A DNA stretch of 64,000 bases, taken from positions 1 through 64,000 of the forward strand of contig NZ_CP086107.1 in the NCBI RefSeq assembly GCF_016765655.2, given 5' to 3'. This stretch comes from Skermanella mucosa. Its GTDB lineage: Bacteria; Pseudomonadota; Alphaproteobacteria; Azospirillales; Azospirillaceae. Under the pieces are notes generated by a model. The model was not told the DNA's origin. It was given only the letters and a program-made list of their open reading frames with translations, and ran no database searches. Every line of letters starts with the position of its first letter. The stretch's first letter is position 1. Shown here in pieces: positions 1 to 9,592 of this stretch. Position numbers and translations under genes: made by a program.

Positions 1-293
1 ATAAAGTTGGCGCATCTCGGTCCAATCCGGGCTCATACGGTAAAAGACTTCGGAACTGGCTTTCGCCAGAGTCCTGAAGCGTTCTTCGCTCGTGCGCCGG
101 GAAACAACCACCTGGGTGGTCTCCGTGCAGAGGACCAGGACACCGCCGACACCATTGAGTGCGCTGGCGTCGTTGATAGGTCCGTAGCTGTAGGTCCAGT
201 AGACGTCTTCGCGCCGGCCGTTGCGGATGATTGGAACCAGCTGGTTCTCATGCCAGGTCGGCTCGCCGCCCGCCATGACCTGGCTGATCTGCG
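1..293 (-). pseudogene. PAS-domain sensor kinase, third segment (split by IS66)
   Basis: Minus-strand reading continues a PAS sensor protein: ISQVMAGGEPTWHENQL, then a region matching VYWTYSYGPIND, then GVGGVLVLCTETT, typical of PAS-containing hybrid or HWE histidine kinases. A second PAS start (FYRMSPDW) runs off the left edge of the window, so the catalytic part is not visible. The segment joins in frame to 6068-6198 and 9214-9411 once the two IS66 copies and their target duplications are removed. Family assignment comes from motif recognition; which kinase class the missing C-terminus belongs to is unknown. Confidence 0.8.
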
Positions 294-377
294 GTAAGCG
301 ATGCGAGTGCACCCTTCTTCCCGGAACCGGGTCTGTGAGCGAGATTACGCGCGGGTTCACGGGGCACGGAGGGGGCG

Positions 378-827
378 ATGGAGGATGGCGTCAGGCTTCA
401 TCCCAGGCTTGAAGCCAAGGATGAAGACAGGCCGTATCGGCGGGTCGAGGTGATCACGGGACGGCGTCAACGGCGCGTGTGGACGGCGCAGGAGAAGGCG
501 CGCATCGTGGCGGAGAGCGCGGTACCGGGCGCCAACATCTCCGAGATCGCGCGGCGGAACGGAGTGAACCGCGGCCTGCTCACGGTCTGGCGCCGGGAGG
601 CAGGTGCCGTCCCGGAAGCGATGCCGGCGCAGACGCCGCTGTTCGTCCCGGTCACCGTGGTCGAGGAGCCTGCGCCCGCTCCTCCGCGGGACCGGCGTCA
701 AGCATCCCGGGAGACGGTGCCGGGCCGGATCGAGATGGATCTGCGCAGCGGGCGGCTGGTGTTCCACGGCGCCGTCGATCCCGGCCTCGCCGCGGCGGTC
801 GTCGCGGCCGCCCGAGGGCGGGGATGA
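378..827 (+). CDS. tnpA: IS66 accessory protein TnpA
   Basis: 149-residue IS66 OrfA protein. The N-terminal third has the helix-turn-helix pattern of IS3/IS66 OrfA proteins (WTAQEKARIVAESAVPG, then ISEIARRNGVNRGLLTVWRRE, about residues 34-75), so it probably binds DNA at the element ends. The proline-rich middle and a short conserved tail (RIEMDLRSGRLVFHG) are usual for the family. Its TGA overlaps the ATG of tnpB (ATGA), indicating translational coupling. Copy 2 differs at only a few residues. Confidence 0.93.
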   Translation: MEDGVRLHPRLEAKDEDRPYRRVEVITGRRQRRVWTAQEKARIVAESAVPGANISEIARRNGVNRGLLTVWRREAGAVPEAMPAQTPLFVPVTVVEEPAPAPPRDRRQASRETVPGRIEMDLRSGRLVFHGAVDPGLAAAVVAAARGRG

Positions 828-1177
828 TCACGCCGCGTCCCGGCCTCAAGGTCGTGCTCGCCACGCAGCCGATCGATTTCCGCAAAGGGGTCCACGGCCT
901 GGTCGCCCTGGTGGCCGAGGCGCTGAAGGCGGATCCCTACTGCGGCGACGTCTTCGTCTTCCGCTCCAAGCGCAAGGACCGGCTCAAGCTCCTGGTTTGG
1001 GACGGTAGCGGATTGATCCTCGCAACGAAGTGGCTGGAGGACGGCGGATTCCCCTGGCCGCCGGTCCGGGACGGCGCGGTCCGGCTGAGCGCGGTCCAGT
1101 TCGCGCTGCTGCTCGACGGACTGGAGTGGCGCGCGGCCGCGCCGCCACCCGTGAAGACGCCCCGGTGGATGGGCTGA
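824..1177 (+). CDS. tnpB: IS66 accessory protein TnpB (IS66 Orf2)
   Basis: 117-residue IS66 Orf2 protein, normal length for the family. Signature segments are PIDFRKGVHGL near residue 16, PYCGDVFVFRSKRKDRLKLL near residues 38-57 and the WDGSGLILATKWLEDG stretch. It is needed with TnpA and TnpC for IS66 transposition in characterised members; its biochemical role is unclear. It is unrelated to the RNA-guided TnpB proteins at 55.9 and 59.8 kb despite the shared name. Start is fixed by the ATGA overlap with tnpA. Confidence 0.95.
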   Translation: MITPRPGLKVVLATQPIDFRKGVHGLVALVAEALKADPYCGDVFVFRSKRKDRLKLLVWDGSGLILATKWLEDGGFPWPPVRDGAVRLSAVQFALLLDGLEWRAAAPPPVKTPRWMG

Positions 1178-1216
1178 AGGCGTTGATCCGTCTGGGATGC
1201 TGCCGGCTTTTGCGGT

Positions 1217-2797
1217 ATGCTCCGGGGCATGGCCGAGCCTCCCGACCCGCTCCCCGCAGACCCCGCCGAACTGGTCCGGATCATCCGTGATCTGGAGGCC
1301 AGGAACGCGGATCTGCAGGCGCAGGTGAAGACCCTGAAGGCGATGATCTTCGGGGCGAAGTCGGAGAGGGCCGCGATGATCGACCCGGAGCAGGGCGTCC
1401 TCGATCTCGGCGACCTCGCCGTCGAGGCGGCTCCGGCCGCCAACGACAACGCGGACCGCACGTCCGGGAAGCCGCGGCGGCACCCGCGCCGTCCGGCGAA
1501 CCGGAATGTTGGAGCTCTGCCCCGGCATCTGCCGCGGGTCGAGACGACTATCGAGCCGGAGAGCACCGCGTGCCCGTGCTGCGCCGGGCCGATGCACCGG
1601 ATCGGCGAGGACGTCGCCGAGGCGCTGGACGTGATCCCGGCCCTTGTGCGCGTCCTGCGCACCATCCGGCCGAAGTATGCCTGCCGATGCTGCCGCGGCA
1701 CCCTGGTCCAGGCCGCCGCCAGGCCGCGCGTGGTGGACGGCGGCATGGCCACCACCGCGCTGGTCGCCCACGTGGTGGTGGCGAAGTTCGCCTGGCACCT
1801 GCCGCTGTACCGGCAGTCCCGGATGTTCGCCGGCCAGGGCATCGCGCTGGACCGGACGACGCTGGTGTTCTGGGTTCGCCGGGCGGCGTGGTGGCTGAAG
1901 CCGCTGTACGAGCGGCTGCTGCTCTACATCCGATCCCAGGAGCGGGTGTTCTGCGACGAGACGCCGTTGCCCCGGTTGGATCCCGGACGGGGCCGCACCA
2001 GGATCTGCCAGCTGTGGGCCCAGGCGGTGGACGACCGCCCCTGGCAGGGACCGGCCCGACCGGCGGTCGGCTACGTGTTCGCCGAGGGGCGGGACACGGC
2101 GGCGATCCAGGACCAGCTGGCGGGCCTCGACGGGCTTCTCCAGGTGGACGGCTACGCGGCCTACAAGGCGCTCGTCCGCCGCCGGAGGCGGGCGACGATC
2201 CGGCTCGTCTTCTGCCTGAGCCATGCCCGCCGCAAGTTCGTGGCGGTGTTCAGGACGACCCGGTCGGAGGTGGCGCGGGAAGTGATCGGGCGCCTCGGTG
2301 AGGTCTACGCCATCGAGGCACGCATCCGCGGCACGACGGCGGAGACCCGCCTGCGGGTCCGGCAGGACCGGTCCCGGCCGATCCTGGAAGCTCTGAAGGT
2401 CCGGCTGATGGCGGTGCGGGCGGAGATCTCCGGCCAGTCGAGCCTGGCCAAGGCGATCGCCTACACCCTGGGTCACTGGGACGGGCTGGTCGCCTTCCTC
2501 GAGGACGGCCGCATCGAGGTGGACACCAACACCGTGGAGAGACTGATGCGCCCGATCGGGTTGGGCCGCAAGAACGCCCTGTTCGCCGGCTCCGCGGCGG
2601 GCGGCCGGGACTGGGCGATCCTCGCCTCGCTGATCAACAGCGCCAGGCTGAACGGCCTCGACCCGTTCTCCTACCTGGCCGACGTGCTGGAGCGCATCGT
2701 GTCGGGTGCCGTGAAGGCCAACGACCTCGACCGCCTGCTGCCGTGGGCATGGAAAGCCGAGCGGGACGCCGATGCCGGGACGGTCCGGGCGGCATGA
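1217..2797 (+). CDS. tnpC: IS66 transposase TnpC
   Basis: 526-residue DDE transposase. An N-terminal coiled coil (residues 20-50) is followed by a zinc-finger pair (CPCC at 119-122, CRCC at 156-159) and the DDE core: D247 in VFCDETPLP, D311 in LLQVDGYAAY and E441 in DTNTVERLMRPIGLGRK. All catalytic positions are present, so the protein is probably active. ATG at 1217 is the longest start; ATG at 1229 (MAEPPD) is an equally good alternative. The TGA overlaps the ATG of the downstream UPF0149-like gene. Confidence 0.95.
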   Translation: MLRGMAEPPDPLPADPAELVRIIRDLEARNADLQAQVKTLKAMIFGAKSERAAMIDPEQGVLDLGDLAVEAAPAANDNADRTSGKPRRHPRRPANRNVGALPRHLPRVETTIEPESTACPCCAGPMHRIGEDVAEALDVIPALVRVLRTIRPKYACRCCRGTLVQAAARPRVVDGGMATTALVAHVVVAKFAWHLPLYRQSRMFAGQGIALDRTTLVFWVRRAAWWLKPLYERLLLYIRSQERVFCDETPLPRLDPGRGRTRICQLWAQAVDDRPWQGPARPAVGYVFAEGRDTAAIQDQLAGLDGLLQVDGYAAYKALVRRRRRATIRLVFCLSHARRKFVAVFRTTRSEVAREVIGRLGEVYAIEARIRGTTAETRLRVRQDRSRPILEALKVRLMAVRAEISGQSSLAKAIAYTLGHWDGLVAFLEDGRIEVDTNTVERLMRPIGLGRKNALFAGSAAGGRDWAILASLINSARLNGLDPFSYLADVLERIVSGAVKANDLDRLLPWAWKAERDADAGTVRAA

Positions 2798-3096
2798 CGG
2801 CCGAGCCCGCTGCGCAGACCGGGCCGGCGGCGCCCAGGACGATGCTGGACGCGGAGGAGCTCGAAGCGTACCTGCGGGGCCGGGCGGCGCCGGTGTCGCG
2901 CCTGGACGGCCTCGACGGCTACCTGACCGCCGTGCTGATCGGGCCGAAGTTCCTCGATCCGCGGATCTGGCTCGGCGACCTGCTGGGCGACCACGCCCTG
3001 CTCGCCGCGGAGAGCACTCGGGAACACCGGGCCGTCCAGGCCGTGGCGGACCACCATAACCGCCTGTCGGAGACGATGGCGCAGTTCCCCGTGTAG
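2794..3096 (+). pseudogene. UPF0149/YecA-like passenger of IS66, 5-prime part
   Basis: Starts at the ATGA overlap with tnpC and encodes about 100 residues of a UPF0149-type protein (LDAEELEAYLRG, then APVSRLDGLDGYLTAVLIGP), a pattern known from YgfB/YecA-like proteins. Reading runs into the IS21 element at 3092 and stops at 3096. The 3-prime half resumes at 5756. In copy 2 the same gene is unbroken but fused to tnpC. No function is known for such passengers; a role in transposition control is only a guess. Confidence 0.8.
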
Positions 3097-3230
3097 CGCG
3101 ACAATCTGGATGAGAAGCGAGCGACAATCTGGATGAGAAACAGCGGTCGCAGTGGAAGCATGATTGCCGCTGTTTACAGGAAGAGCAAGAGCGTGGTTGA
3201 GGTTTTGGCCTGATTGACGCGGCGCGACAA

Positions 3231-5590
<2,360 letters not shown>

Positions 5591-5749
5591 TCAGACCATC
5601 GCGACCGCCAGACGGCGTGATCCGATCAAGGATCACACCGTCGCCAGCGCCGTGCCTCCGATCGGGCTACGCCCTCACTCCGGCACGGCGCTGGCGACAC
5701 TTTCTCATCCAGATTGACGCTCCGTTCTCACCTTGATTGTCGCGGGATA

Positions 5750-6027
5750 TCCCCGGCCTGTACCGGCCGCACCTGGCGCCGCACCACGCAGGAGGGCTGG
5801 ACCCGATCTTCTGGTCGCTTGGGTTCCTGGTGGCCACCCGGCTGGCGCCGCGCGCGTGGAAGAGCGTGACCAACCCGGGCAAACCGGAACACGCTCCGTT
5901 CCAGGCCCTGGGCCCCGTGCTGTTCGGCACGGCGGCCATCGCCGAGGCCGACGTCCCGGCCGTAGCCAAGGCCATCCTGGACTTGCGCGAACACTTCAAG
6001 GCCCGCCGCAACAGATCCATGCGGTGA
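5750..6027 (+). pseudogene. UPF0149/YecA-like passenger of IS66, 3-prime part
   Basis: Continues the passenger gene after the IS21 insertion: GLYRPHLAPHHAGGLDPIF, then a hydrophobic helix with WSLGFLVATRLAP, ending in EHFKARRNRSMR and TGA. It lacks its own start. Joined to 2794-3091 without the target duplication it gives one uninterrupted UPF0149-like protein; its 3-prime end is 40 bp inside the IS66 right end. Confidence 0.8.
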
Positions 6028-6067
6028 TCGCGCAGCCAAAGGCCAAGGGTCCGCTCGCATCGCTTAC

Positions 6068-6198
6068 GATCTGCGGCCCGATGACGGGCCAAGCGTCCGG
6101 CCAGGCCTGCCGGCCCGGAGCTCCCAGAATGGAGGGATGTTTCTCAGGACCGAGCGAGGCGGCGTAGGCGTCGTTGTAGAGGCAGATGTGCTCAGAAC
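6068..6198 (-). pseudogene. PAS-domain sensor kinase, middle segment
   Basis: 131 bp of target gene trapped between the two IS66 copies, including one target duplication of each (GATCTGCG and CTCAGAAC). The minus strand reads SEHICLYNDAYAASLG, then PEKHPSILGAPGRQ and WPVIGPQI, the PAS segment expected between the N-terminal and 1-293 pieces. Removing the insertions restores one open frame across all three segments. Confidence 0.85.
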
Positions 6199-6238
6199 GT
6201 AAGCGATGCGAGCGGACCCTTGGCCTTTGGCTGCGTGA

Positions 6239-8290
6239 TCACCGCATGGATCGGTTGCGGCGGGCCTTGAAGTGTTCGCGCAACTCCAGGATGGCCTTGG
6301 CTACGGCCGGGACGTCGGCCTCGGCGATAGCCGCCGTGCCGAACAGCACGGGGCCCAGGGCCTGGAACGGAGCATGTTCCGGTTTGCCCGGGTTGGTCAC
6401 GCTCTTCCAGGCGCGCGGCGCCAGCCGGGTGGCCACCAGGAACCCGAGGGACCAGAAGATCGGGTCCAGCCCTCCTGCGTGGTGCGGCGCCAGATGCGGC
6501 CGGTACAGGCCGGGGAACTGCGCCATCGTCTCCGACAGGCGGTTATGGTGGTCCGCCACGGCCTGGACGGCCCGGTGCTCCCGGCTGCTCTCCGCGGCGA
6601 GCAGGGCGTGGTCGCCCAGCAGGTCGCCGAGCCAGATCCGCGGATCGAGGAACTTCGGCCCGATCAGCACGGCGGTCAGGTAGCCGTCGAGGCCGTCCAG
6701 CCGCGACACCGGCGCCGCCCGGACCGTCCCGGCATCGGCGCCCCGCTCGGCTTTCCATGCCCACGGCAGCAGGCGGTCGAGATCGTTGGCCTTCACGGCA
6801 CCCGACACGATGCGCTCCAGCACGTCGGCCAGGTAGGAGAACGGGTCGAGGCCGTTCAGCTTGGCGCTGTTGATCAGCGAGGCGAGGATCGCCCAGTCCC
6901 GGCCGCCCGCCGCGGAGCCGGCGAACAGGGCGTTCTTGCGGCCCAACCCGATCGGGCGCATCAGTCTCTCCACGGTGTTGGTGTCCACCTCGATGCGGCC
7001 GTCCTCGAGGAAGGCGACCAGCCCGTCCCAGTGACCCAGGGTGTAGGCGATCGCCTTGGCCAGGCTCGACTGGCCGGAGATCTCCGCCCGCACCGCCATC
7101 AGCCGGACCTTCAGAGCTTCCAGGATCGGCCGGGACCGGTCCTGCCGGACCCGCAGGCGGGTCTCCGCCGTCGTGCCGCGGATGCGTGCCTCGATGGCGT
7201 AGACCTCACCGAGGCGCCCGATCACTTCCCGCGCCACCTCCGACCGGGTCGTCCTGAACACCGCCACGAACTTGCGGCGGGCATGGCTCAGGCAGAAGAC
7301 GAGCCGGATCGTCGCCCGCCTCCGGCGGCGGACGAGCGCCTTGTAGGCCGCGTAGCCGTCCACCTGGAGAAGCCCGTCGAGGCCCGCCAGCTGGTCCTGG
7401 ATCGCCGCCGTGTCCCGCCCCTCGGCGAACACGTAGCCGACCGCCGGTCGGGCCGGTCCCTGCCAGGGGCGGTCGTCCACCGCCTGGGCCCACAGCTGGC
7501 AGATCCTGGTGCGGCCCCGTCCGGGATCCAACCGGGGCAACGGCGTCTCGTCGCAGAACACCCGCTCCTGGGATCGGATGTAGAGCAGCAGCCGCTCGTA
7601 CAGCGGCTTCAGCCACCACGCCGCCCGGCGAACCCAGAACACCAGCGTCGTCCGGTCCAGCGCGATGCCCTGGCCGGCGAACATCCGGGACTGCCGGTAC
7701 AGCGGCAGGTGCCAGGCGAACTTCGCCACCACCACGTGGGCGACCAGCGCGGTGGTGGCCATGCCGCCGTCCACCACGCGCGGCCTGGCGGCGGCCTGGA
7801 CCAGGGTGCCGCGGCAGCATCGGCAGGCATACTTCGGCCGGATGGTGCGCAGGACGCGCACAAGGGCCGGGATCACGTCCAGCGCCTCGGCGACGTCCTC
7901 GCCGATCCGGTGCATCGGCCCGGCGCAGCACGGGCACGCGGTGCTCTCCGGCTCGATAGTCGTCTCGACCCGCGGCAGATGCCGGGGCAGAGCTCCAACA
8001 TTCCGGTTCGCCGGACGGCGCGGGTGCCGCCGCGGCTTCCCGGACGTGCGGTCCGCGTTGTCGTTGGCGGCCGGAGCCGCCTCGACGGCGAGGTCGCCGA
8101 GATCGAGGACGCCCTGCTCCGGGTCGATCATCGCGGCCCTCTCCGACTTCGCCCCGAAGATCATCGCCTTCAGGGTCTTCACCTGCGCCTGCAGATCCGC
8201 GTTCCTGGCCTCCAGATCACGGATGATCCGGACCAGTTCGGCGGGGTCTGCGGGGAGCGGGTCGGGAGGCTCGGCCATGCCCCGGAGCAT
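6239..8290 (-). CDS. tnpC: TnpC-UPF0149 fusion protein of IS66 copy 2
   Basis: 683-residue reading frame fusing nearly all of IS66 TnpC (zinc fingers CPCC and CRCC, DDE residues near D247, D311, E441) to a UPF0149-like domain from APVSRLDGLDGYL onward. In copy 1 these are two genes overlapping by ATGA. The fusion arises from a 95-bp deletion between two 9-bp CCGGGCGGC repeats, which removes the tnpC stop and the first 30 or so passenger codons and restores the frame. Whether the chimera still transposes is unknown. A start at 8278 (MAEPPD) is also possible. Confidence 0.92.
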   Translation of the reverse strand: MLRGMAEPPDPLPADPAELVRIIRDLEARNADLQAQVKTLKAMIFGAKSERAAMIDPEQGVLDLGDLAVEAAPAANDNADRTSGKPRRHPRRPANRNVGALPRHLPRVETTIEPESTACPCCAGPMHRIGEDVAEALDVIPALVRVLRTIRPKYACRCCRGTLVQAAARPRVVDGGMATTALVAHVVVAKFAWHLPLYRQSRMFAGQGIALDRTTLVFWVRRAAWWLKPLYERLLLYIRSQERVFCDETPLPRLDPGRGRTRICQLWAQAVDDRPWQGPARPAVGYVFAEGRDTAAIQDQLAGLDGLLQVDGYAAYKALVRRRRRATIRLVFCLSHARRKFVAVFRTTRSEVAREVIGRLGEVYAIEARIRGTTAETRLRVRQDRSRPILEALKVRLMAVRAEISGQSSLAKAIAYTLGHWDGLVAFLEDGRIEVDTNTVERLMRPIGLGRKNALFAGSAAGGRDWAILASLINSAKLNGLDPFSYLADVLERIVSGAVKANDLDRLLPWAWKAERGADAGTVRAAPVSRLDGLDGYLTAVLIGPKFLDPRIWLGDLLGDHALLAAESSREHRAVQAVADHHNRLSETMAQFPGLYRPHLAPHHAGGLDPIFWSLGFLVATRLAPRAWKSVTNPGKPEHAPFQALGPVLFGTAAIAEADVPAVAKAILELREHFKARRNRSMR

Positions 8291-8329
8291 ACCGCAAAAG
8301 CCGGCAGCATCCCAGACGGATCAACGCCT

Positions 8330-8683
8330 TCAGCCCATCCACCGGGGCGTCTTCACGGGTGGCGGCGCGGCCGCGCGCCACTCCAGTCCGTCGAGCAGCA
8401 GCGCGAACTGGACCGCGCTCAGCCGGACCGCGCCGTCCCGGACCGGCGGCCAGGGGAATCCGCCGTCCTCCAGCCACTTCGTTGCGAGGATCAATCCGCT
8501 ACCGTCCCAAACCAGGAGCTTGAGCCGGTCCTTGCGCTTGGAGCGGAAGACGAAGACGTCACCGCAGTAGGGATCCGCCTTCAGCGCCTCGGCCACCAGG
8601 GCGACCAGGCCGTGGACCCCTTTGCGGAAATCGATCGGCTGCGTGGCGAGCACGACCTTGAGGTCGGGACGCGGCGTGATCAT
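8330..8683 (-). CDS. tnpB: IS66 accessory protein TnpB (copy 2)
   Basis: 117-residue IS66 Orf2 protein, almost identical to that of copy 1 (G7 of copy 1 is D here). It carries PIDFRKGVHGL and the YCGDVFVFRSKRKDR signature. ATGA overlap with tnpA at 8680-8683 fixes the start. No lesion seen. Confidence 0.94.
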   Translation of the reverse strand: MITPRPDLKVVLATQPIDFRKGVHGLVALVAEALKADPYCGDVFVFRSKRKDRLKLLVWDGSGLILATKWLEDGGFPWPPVRDGAVRLSAVQFALLLDGLEWRAAAPPPVKTPRWMG

Positions 8684-9129
8684 CCCCGCCCTCGGGCGGC
8701 CGCGACGACCGCCGCGGCGAGGCCGGGATCGACGGCGCCGTGGAACACCAACCGCCCGCTGCGCAGATCCATCTCGATCCGGCCCGGCGCCGTCTCCCGG
8801 GATGCTTGACGCCGGTCCCGCGGAGGAGCGGGCGCAGGCTCCTCGACCACCGTGACCGGAACGAACAGCGGCGTCTGCGCCGGGGTCGCTTCCGGGACCG
8901 CACCTGCCTCCCGGCGCCAGACCGTGAGCAGGCCGCGGTTCACCCCGTTCCGCCGCGCGACCTCGGAGATGTTGGCGCCCGGCACCGCGCTCTCCGCCAC
9001 GATGCGCGCCTTCTCCTGTGCCGTCCACACGCGCCGTTGACGCCGTCCCGTGATCACCTCGACCCGCCGATACGGCCCGTCTTCATCCATGGCTTCAAGC
9101 CTGGCATGAAGCCTGACGCCATCCTCCAT
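8680..9129 (-). CDS. tnpA: IS66 accessory protein TnpA (copy 2)
   Basis: 149-residue helix-turn-helix OrfA protein of IS66. It differs from copy 1 at several positions (for example EVARRN for EIARRN and EATPA for EAMPA), so the two copies are not the product of a very recent duplication in place. It overlaps tnpB by ATGA. Confidence 0.92.
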   Translation of the reverse strand: MEDGVRLHARLEAMDEDGPYRRVEVITGRRQRRVWTAQEKARIVAESAVPGANISEVARRNGVNRGLLTVWRREAGAVPEATPAQTPLFVPVTVVEEPAPAPPRDRRQASRETAPGRIEMDLRSGRLVFHGAVDPGLAAAVVAAARGRG

Positions 9130-9213
9130 CGCCCCCTCCGTGCTCAGTGAACCCGCGCGTAATCTCGCTCACAGACCCGGTTCCGGGAAGAAGGGTGCAT
9201 TCGCATCGCTTAC

Positions 9214-9411
9214 CTCAGAACTCCAGAAGATGAAAACCGGGTGCTTGGTGCTGAGCATGATGCCGACCGCTGTCTTCAGGCTCTGCGGCCAAGCCTCGGT
9301 GGGACCGAGAGGGGTGCCGGACCAGTTGTGCGCCCGTATCAGCGTCCCCATGGCGCCACCGCCGACCAGCCAGGAGCCATCTGCATGACCGACATCAGGC
9401 GTCATGATCAC
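9214..9411 (-). pseudogene. PAS-domain sensor kinase, N-terminal segment
   Basis: N-terminus of the split kinase: GSWLVGGGAMGTLIR, then NWSGTPLGPTEAWPQSLKT and HPVFIFWSSE, the stereotyped opening of many alphaproteobacterial PAS kinases. Reading enters IS66 copy 2 after SSE. Possible starts are ATG at 9411, at 9405, or later at 9351 (MGTLIR). It overlaps the end of the upstream antitoxin-like gene by 17 bp on the same strand. Confidence 0.82.
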
Positions 9412-9592
9412 CGACCGGGATGGTGAAGCCGGTGACCGGGCGCGTTCGGTCCGGTGTTCGCTCCTGGAGCAGGCGCAGCCCGTCGCGGATGACTTCGCTA
9501 GCGGTCTGGTAACTGCCTGACGCTACCTGGGCCTGGACGAAGCGGTTGAGCTCTGGAGTGAGAGAGATGCTTTGGCTAACGCGTCTAGTCAT
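9395..9592 (-). CDS. ParD-like ribbon-helix-helix antitoxin (orphan)
   Basis: 65-residue protein from ATG 9592 (MTRRVSQSISLTPEL); an upstream GTG at 9634 is less likely. The sequence SISLTPELNRFVQAQVASG followed by YQTASEVIRDGLRLLQER is the ribbon-helix-helix and dimer pattern of ParD antitoxins. Normally a ParE toxin gene follows; here the next frame is the PAS kinase, so the partner is missing or elsewhere. Assignment rests on motif; activity is unknown. Confidence 0.75.
   Translation of the reverse strand: MTRRVSQSISLTPELNRFVQAQVASGSYQTASEVIRDGLRLLQERTPDRTRPVTGFTIPVGDHDA

Follow-up and report, generated by a model that had tools for sequence, protein, structure and literature searches.

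Two IS66 elements at the start of the window

The DNA analysed here, called the window, comprises the first 64,000 nucleotides of one contig (G000:C2:1-64000) of a genome of 7.84 Mb in 5 contigs. It starts with two IS66 elements in inverted orientation, with 131 bp between them (Table 1). Three close copies of this element are present in the genome: copies 1 and 2 in the window, and copy 3 (L020) on contig C1. IS66 elements have inverted ends that start with GTAA and generate an 8-bp target duplication. The elements described here have GTAAGCGATGCGA ends, with 8-bp duplications flanking all three copies (GATCAATC for copy 3), and accessory tnpA and tnpB genes lie upstream of a tnpC gene, the product of which has DDE_Tnp_IS66, zinc-finger and C-terminal element domains. 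Right after tnpC follows a gene for a UPF0149 protein, the passenger. In copies 1 and 3, the passenger start overlaps the tnpC stop, in copy 1 in the form of an ATGA in which the passenger ATG is contained; in copy 2 this overlap has been deleted and both genes are fused. Without nested insertions, copies 1, 2 and 3 measure 3110, 3015 and 3109 bp, respectively.

Among the three close copies, only copy 2 is uninterrupted. Both split copies house an IS21 relative, located in the passenger gene of copy 1 and in tnpC of copy 3, and these two relatives are distinct, sharing 76% DNA identity. The interruption of the copy 1 passenger, the 5' frame of which extends a few bases into IS21 (from 3092), was absent from the first-pass annotation of this DNA. 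The tnpA gene of copy 3 has a one-base deletion. Finally, both IS66 copies in the window may interrupt the same host gene, perhaps encoding a PAS-type sensor (window positions 1-293 and 9169-9522, the latter on the minus strand): the piece at 1-390 matches PAS_4 with an E value of 0.0093, which is below the cut-off, and the other piece has no match.

Table 1. Features of the two IS66 elements in the window
Feature	Position	Strand	Remarks
IS66 copy 1, split genes, holds nested IS21	294-6067	+	ends GTAAGCGATGCGA.../...TCGCATCGCTTAC
Copy 1 target duplication, 8 bp, GATCTGCG	286-293 and 6068-6075		
Copy 1 tnpA	378-827	+	HTH_Tnp_1; NCBIfam IS66_ISRel24_TnpA
Copy 1 tnpB	824-1177	+	TnpB_IS66, E 2.8e-34
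Copy 1 tnpC, 526 aa	1217-2797	+	DDE_Tnp_IS66, zf-IS66, LZ, C-terminal elements
Copy 1 tract identical to copy 2	minimum 985-2392, maximum 947-2645	+	1.4-1.7 kb
Direct repeat, first CCGGGCGGC	2785-2793	+	copy 1
Direct repeat, second CCGGGCGGC	2880-2888	+	copy 1
95-bp segment missing from copy 2	2785-2879 (equivalently 2794-2888)	+	copy 1 coordinates
Copy 1 UPF0149 passenger, 5' part	2794-3096	+	PF03695, E 3.9e-10
IS21 nested in copy 1 passenger	3092-5749	-	istB 3231-4040, istA 4037-5587
IS21 target duplication TCCCCG in copy 1	3086-3091 and 5750-5755		
Copy 1 passenger, 3' part	5750-6027	+	96% identity to fused-protein residues 585-683
IS66 copy 2, fused, uninterrupted, 3015 bp	6199-9213	-	both ends intact
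Copy 2 target duplication, 8 bp, CTCAGAAC	6191-6198 and 9214-9221		
Copy 2 fused TnpC-UPF0149 ORF, 683 aa	6239-8290	-	526/526 TnpC residues + passenger 33-189
Single CCGGGCGGC at fusion point	6714-6722	-	copy 2
Copy 2 tnpB	8330-8683	-	TnpB_IS66
Copy 2 tnpA	8680-9129	-	HTH_Tnp_1

The 95-bp deletion and the lineage to which it belongs

The first-pass annotation had placed CCGGGCGGC on either side of the tnpC stop and passenger start in copy 1, and had described copy 2 as having a single CCGGGCGGC, as exactly 95 bp shorter and as encoding one protein of 683 residues. Both descriptions are correct: the repeats are exact matches that flank the ATGA (2794-2797), and the length difference and the long product follow from the alignment and the open reading frame. 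When copy 2 is aligned with copy 1 minus its IS21, the 95 bp form the sole gap, all remaining differences being substitutions. In copy 3, the two repeats and the 95 bp are all present.

A 9-bp repeat pair in such an element is unremarkable by itself. The window contains 16 exact matches to CCGGGCGGC (shuffle mean 5.7), and in copy 3 the direct pairs that are 9 bp or longer and spaced by 30-300 bp number 14, against 7 to 13 in 15 dinucleotide shuffles. More telling is how seldom the ends of a deletion share such homology. At least 9 bp of end homology is found for 146 of the 789,694 possible deletions of 30-300 bp in copy 3, the observed pair counted, and for 10 of the 63,590 possible 95-bp deletions in the window; by arithmetic, these 10 placements are equivalents of one 9-bp pair, the observed repeat. 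Since chance homology of 9 bp thus amounts to about 0.02% per deletion, there is good support for a repeat-mediated loss. When replication slippage or single-strand annealing deletes DNA between short direct repeats, one repeat is lost together with the intervening segment, and here too the breakpoints lie at direct repeats and one repeat is left. With regard to the slipped mispairing proposed earlier, the deletion from repeat to repeat stands, while slippage is a plausible mechanism that, by sequence, looks no different from other short-homology deletion routes, among them single-strand annealing and unequal exchange.

In either gene the repeat is divided into codons as CGG GCG GC, giving RAA at the TnpC end and RAA at passenger residues 30-32. 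Since (R)AA is encoded in one and the same phase by the two repeats, the join between TnpC and passenger is in frame. What copy 2 has lost is the stop of tnpC together with the start codon and the first 29 codons of the passenger, while RAA is common to both genes. The fusion put forward in the first-pass annotation, arising within a mobile element by the loss of 95 bp between 9-bp direct repeats and keeping the frame, is supported. In-frame pairs of at least 8 bp, starting at most 60 bp upstream of the stop and removing 20-219 bp, were surveyed in 12 split sequences. Five have such a pair, namely copies 1 and 3 (9 bp) and the relatives L061, L064 and L074 (8 bp, at a spacing of 98-101 bp and with the segment still present); in the other seven sequences surveyed it is absent.

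The same annotation had presented copies 1 and 2 as a direct before-and-after pair, which is not supported, as copy 1 is a mosaic. Aligning all three shows three clean blocks (19/51/16 informative sites). Within element positions 1-653, copy 2 deviates from the other two at 19 sites; from 692 to 2099 the deviating copy is copy 3, with 51 sites; and over 2353-3110, a block that includes the 95 bp, it is copy 2 once more, with 16 sites. At no site does copy 1 deviate. The ends of copy 1 are of the copy 3 type, identical save for a one-base gap in copy 3, and at the junction copy 1 matches copy 3 as well. Copy 2 departs from copy 3 at 86 of about 3,000 sites (approximately 3%). Judging from this pattern, the mosaic probably arose by gene conversion between the inverted neighbours, the conversion tract having ended, it would seem, about 140-390 bp before the deletion; in principle, the identity of copies 1 and 2 in their middle could also stem from short-read polishing. 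Given the mosaic structure, the idea of copy 1 as the direct parent of copy 2 was rejected: copy 1 is a cousin, probably a converted one, and the deletion is to be assigned to the copy 2 lineage. The uninterrupted split passenger that represents the state before fusion is that of copy 3, on contig C1.

The split form as the ancestral state

The UPF0149 gene regularly stands fourth in an ISSme3-like IS66 subgroup in Azospirillaceae and rhizobia. UPF0149 genes with an ATGA overlap were also seen in L076, L077 and L078 and in loci among L086-L139. PF03695 scores 56.6 bits with the whole passenger of copy 3 and 49 bits with the fused protein, both above the curated cut-off of 25, and a TIGR02292 match above cut-off is present in the passenger. 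A predicted model of the copy 3 passenger (mean pLDDT 89.9, pTM 0.85) best resembles two structures, YgfB of Haemophilus (1IZM), with Z 12.3 over 153 residues at an rmsd of 3.4, and 4GYT, with Z 11.7 over 155 residues at an rmsd of 3.8. The next structural match is far lower (Z 2.5), bearing in mind that for helical bundles a Z value under about 13 may lack specificity. Foldseek alone gave a weak match to 1IZM (E 0.011), the second structural comparison being stronger, and a PDB sequence search with the passenger profile gave no match. The passenger is thus predicted to have the YgfB fold.

A scan of genome contigs yielded 103 passenger relatives, 80 of which were taken in. A TnpC match lies just upstream in 47 of these 80 loci, many of which are closely related, and 33 lack one. 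From frames and stops, 46 of the 47 TnpC-linked loci were called split: 41 have ATGA, one has GTGA and in four the TnpC match ends early (L110, L117, L118, L131). The remaining one, L119, is fused by frame. Between the tnpC stop and the core of the passenger lie 86 bp in copies 1 and 3, 89-92 bp in L061, L062, L064, L069 and L074, and 59 bp in L033, where the N-terminus is shorter. As sequence homologous to the 95-bp stretch is present in split Azospirillaceae relatives (six were compared at the junction), the 95 bp were lost and not gained.

The reverse course, in which the fused form would be ancestral and the split form would result from a 95-bp insertion, is scarcely credible and was rejected: nothing was found in its favour, and the homologous stretch refutes it. 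As a rule, the linked loci are split and have homologous sequence in the gap, and both copy 3 and the six Azospirillaceae relatives are split at the junction and retain the stretch. The tree of the passengers, with 29 rows of which 27 are different, speaks against it as well. In this tree, midpoint-rooted for drawing and with long-branch warnings among the distant rows, the fused forms appear as two single tips, apart from one another and each beside a split row, copy 2 lying next to split copy 3. The phylogeny, for which the first-pass annotation had named an ancestral fused form as the refuting result, came out the opposite way (46 of 47 split, copy 2 a tip): the split form is ancestral and the deletion in copy 2 is derived.

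That annotation had also suggested a search for TnpC-UPF0149 fusions in other genomes, and in the genomes searched this gave L119, fused by one extra base, and no second case made by deletion. Among the matches listed for 145 genomes (the source included; 57 with matches), copy 2 alone crosses the junction without a stop. The same holds for 385 genomes of the class, the source included (8 with matches at E <= 1e-110, up to three candidates scored per genome), in which there was none beyond copy 2, and for 394 genomes of a rhizobial family (8 with matches at E <= 1e-200, up to two candidates per genome), in which there was none. The exact fused junction, with at most 3 mismatches, occurs in one of 82 genomes of the family to which the source belongs, the source itself, at copy 2; a second match in the source genome (C1:6181380, 3 mismatches) was taken as chance, there being no element match at that place. 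Among the 60 plasmid matches listed from a tblastn search that covered 5000 records, H3 is the only one in a single piece (66% query cover), the others consisting of 2 to 5 pieces, and six pattern matches in viral contigs included no relatives.

A single TnpC-UPF0149 reading frame is seen in L119 (1030-3216) of Rhizobium leguminosarum Vaf-46. The cause is a single additional base in a C run ahead of the stop of tnpC, with no deletion involved, and the locus was rejected as a second, independent fusion. It is on a draft contig with a coverage of 9.7 given in its name, and its best plasmid relatives, H61 and H62, match 600 of its 601 bases and are therefore consistent with a split form, so that the fusion in L119 is possibly a sequencing error. 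No confirmed second case of a fused TnpC-UPF0149 was found in the genomes searched, and an undetected fusion elsewhere is possible.

That copy 2 itself is an artefact of assembly or sequencing is very improbable. Near-identical inverted copies so close together (131 bp) can confuse assembly, and the only other fusion found, that of L119, depends on a single extra C-run base in a draft contig. However, the loss in copy 2 runs exactly from repeat to repeat, copy 2 bears private changes on either side of the deletion, and the genome is assembled into only 5 contigs for 7.8 Mb.

We are thus highly confident that a derived deletion between 9-bp repeats, in the lineage of copy 2, fused tnpC to the UPF0149 gene. 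The ancestor would have been an element of the ISSme3-like subgroup that carried tnpA, tnpB, tnpC and a UPF0149 gene with its start overlapping the stop of tnpC. On the way to copy 2, the DNA between two 9-bp direct repeats was deleted, and the repeat length by itself would suggest that this happened through short homology and independently of RecA, for example by replication slippage. The join was automatically in frame, giving a single chain of 683 residues with TnpC intact and a UPF0149 domain minus its predicted first helix. Copy 1, a relative of copy 3, would probably have had its middle converted toward copy 2, short of the fusion point.

Consequences of the fusion and comparison with known systems

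In the fused chain, the complete TnpC (residues 1-526) is followed by passenger residues 33-189. The passenger start is lost, as are residues 20-29, the first helix of the predicted model. A model of the whole fused chain is poor (mean pLDDT 50.6). The changes polarised to the lineage of copy 2 comprise 4 silent and 1 replacing in the passenger, 4 silent and 2 replacing in tnpA, 1 and 0 in tnpB, and 0 and 1 in tnpC. The passenger changes fit constraint on this gene, but they are few and may predate the deletion. Because there is one fused copy only, there is no sign of spread after the fusion. Most likely, the fusion is a tolerated accident, that is, a transposase with a C-terminal passenger extension.

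Two other outcomes deserve consideration. The fusion could be a dead-end allele, the C-terminal extension or the loss of the free passenger inactivating the element. This has a substantial chance of being true, if somewhat below even: the fused form exists as a single copy, its UPF0149 domain is truncated, and fusions are rare even though an 8-bp pair pre-exists in three relatives, but TnpC, TnpB, TnpA, the ends and the target duplication are all intact. Conversely, the fused chain could be a working and selected transposase, with UPF0149 as a partner of TnpC and the tethering neutral or useful. The retention of all of TnpC, the intact ends with their duplication, the excess of silent over replacing passenger changes (4 to 1), the status of copy 2 as the sole uninterrupted copy of the three, and the conserved order of TnpC and passenger with overlapping start would all agree with this. 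It is nevertheless unlikely, as the single copy gives no sign of spread, the five passenger changes are few and possibly older than the deletion, the lone tnpC change polarised to copy 2 is a replacing one, the passenger is without its first helix, and no further deletion-made fusion was found in the genomes searched. Marginally less likely again is the specific proposition that the fused chain is active, with UPF0149 as a physical partner or regulator of TnpC and a tethering compatible with transposition. If true, UPF0149 proteins would gain a role in a mobile element.

Events of this kind are known, and this one is a tidy, fairly ordinary example of gene fusion. Split relatives in the same genome document how an overlapping gene pair became one gene in a single in-frame step. 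The case also draws attention to a UPF0149 gene, conserved yet unexplained, that an IS66 subgroup carries in Azospirillaceae and rhizobia, and the split, fused and IS21-interrupted states form a natural set bearing on whether this gene matters for transposition. The broader matter is why the subgroup keeps a UPF0149 gene. A literature search found no paper on an association between IS66 and UPF0149 and no reported function for the ATGA-overlapping UPF0149 gene of this subgroup. YgfB of Pseudomonas is reported to interact with the regulator AlpA and to counteract it (PMC9998450); by likeness to YgfB, a protein-binding regulatory role of the IS66 passenger may be taken as a lead only. A UPF0149 gene is also present on a Xanthomonas plasmid, with IS66 absent from the excerpted text (PMC12840622).

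As to known systems, copy 2 resembles other deletions between short direct repeats in the loss of one repeat and the segment between, and differs in that the deletion is situated at a gene boundary and is in frame, the same residues being encoded in phase. With the YgfB/UPF0149 fold of 1IZM and 4GYT, the passenger model aligns over 153-155 residues; in contrast to these, the passenger has only 13-16% identity, is encoded by a transposon and, in its fused form, is devoid of helix 1. ISSme3 and its relatives in Sinorhizobium, Rhizobium and Agrobacterium have the same tnpA-tnpB-tnpC order, followed by a gene annotated as UPF0149/YecA with an ATGA overlap. Their TnpC is 57-59% identical to that of the fused protein, and the three records examined (L076, L077, L078) are split, whereas copy 2 is fused by deletion. 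The same gene order recurs in the Azospirillum-type IS66 elements (Azospirillum sp. B510 pAB510e, A. doebereinerae, A. rugosum), with the best TnpC matches among those listed being 77-85% identical (G042, G054, G067, G075, G076). Three loci, L074, which is named as Azospirillum, and L061 and L064, which are taken as Azospirillum, have an 8-bp in-frame pair in the same place. The elements of this type are unfused, whereas copy 2 is fused.
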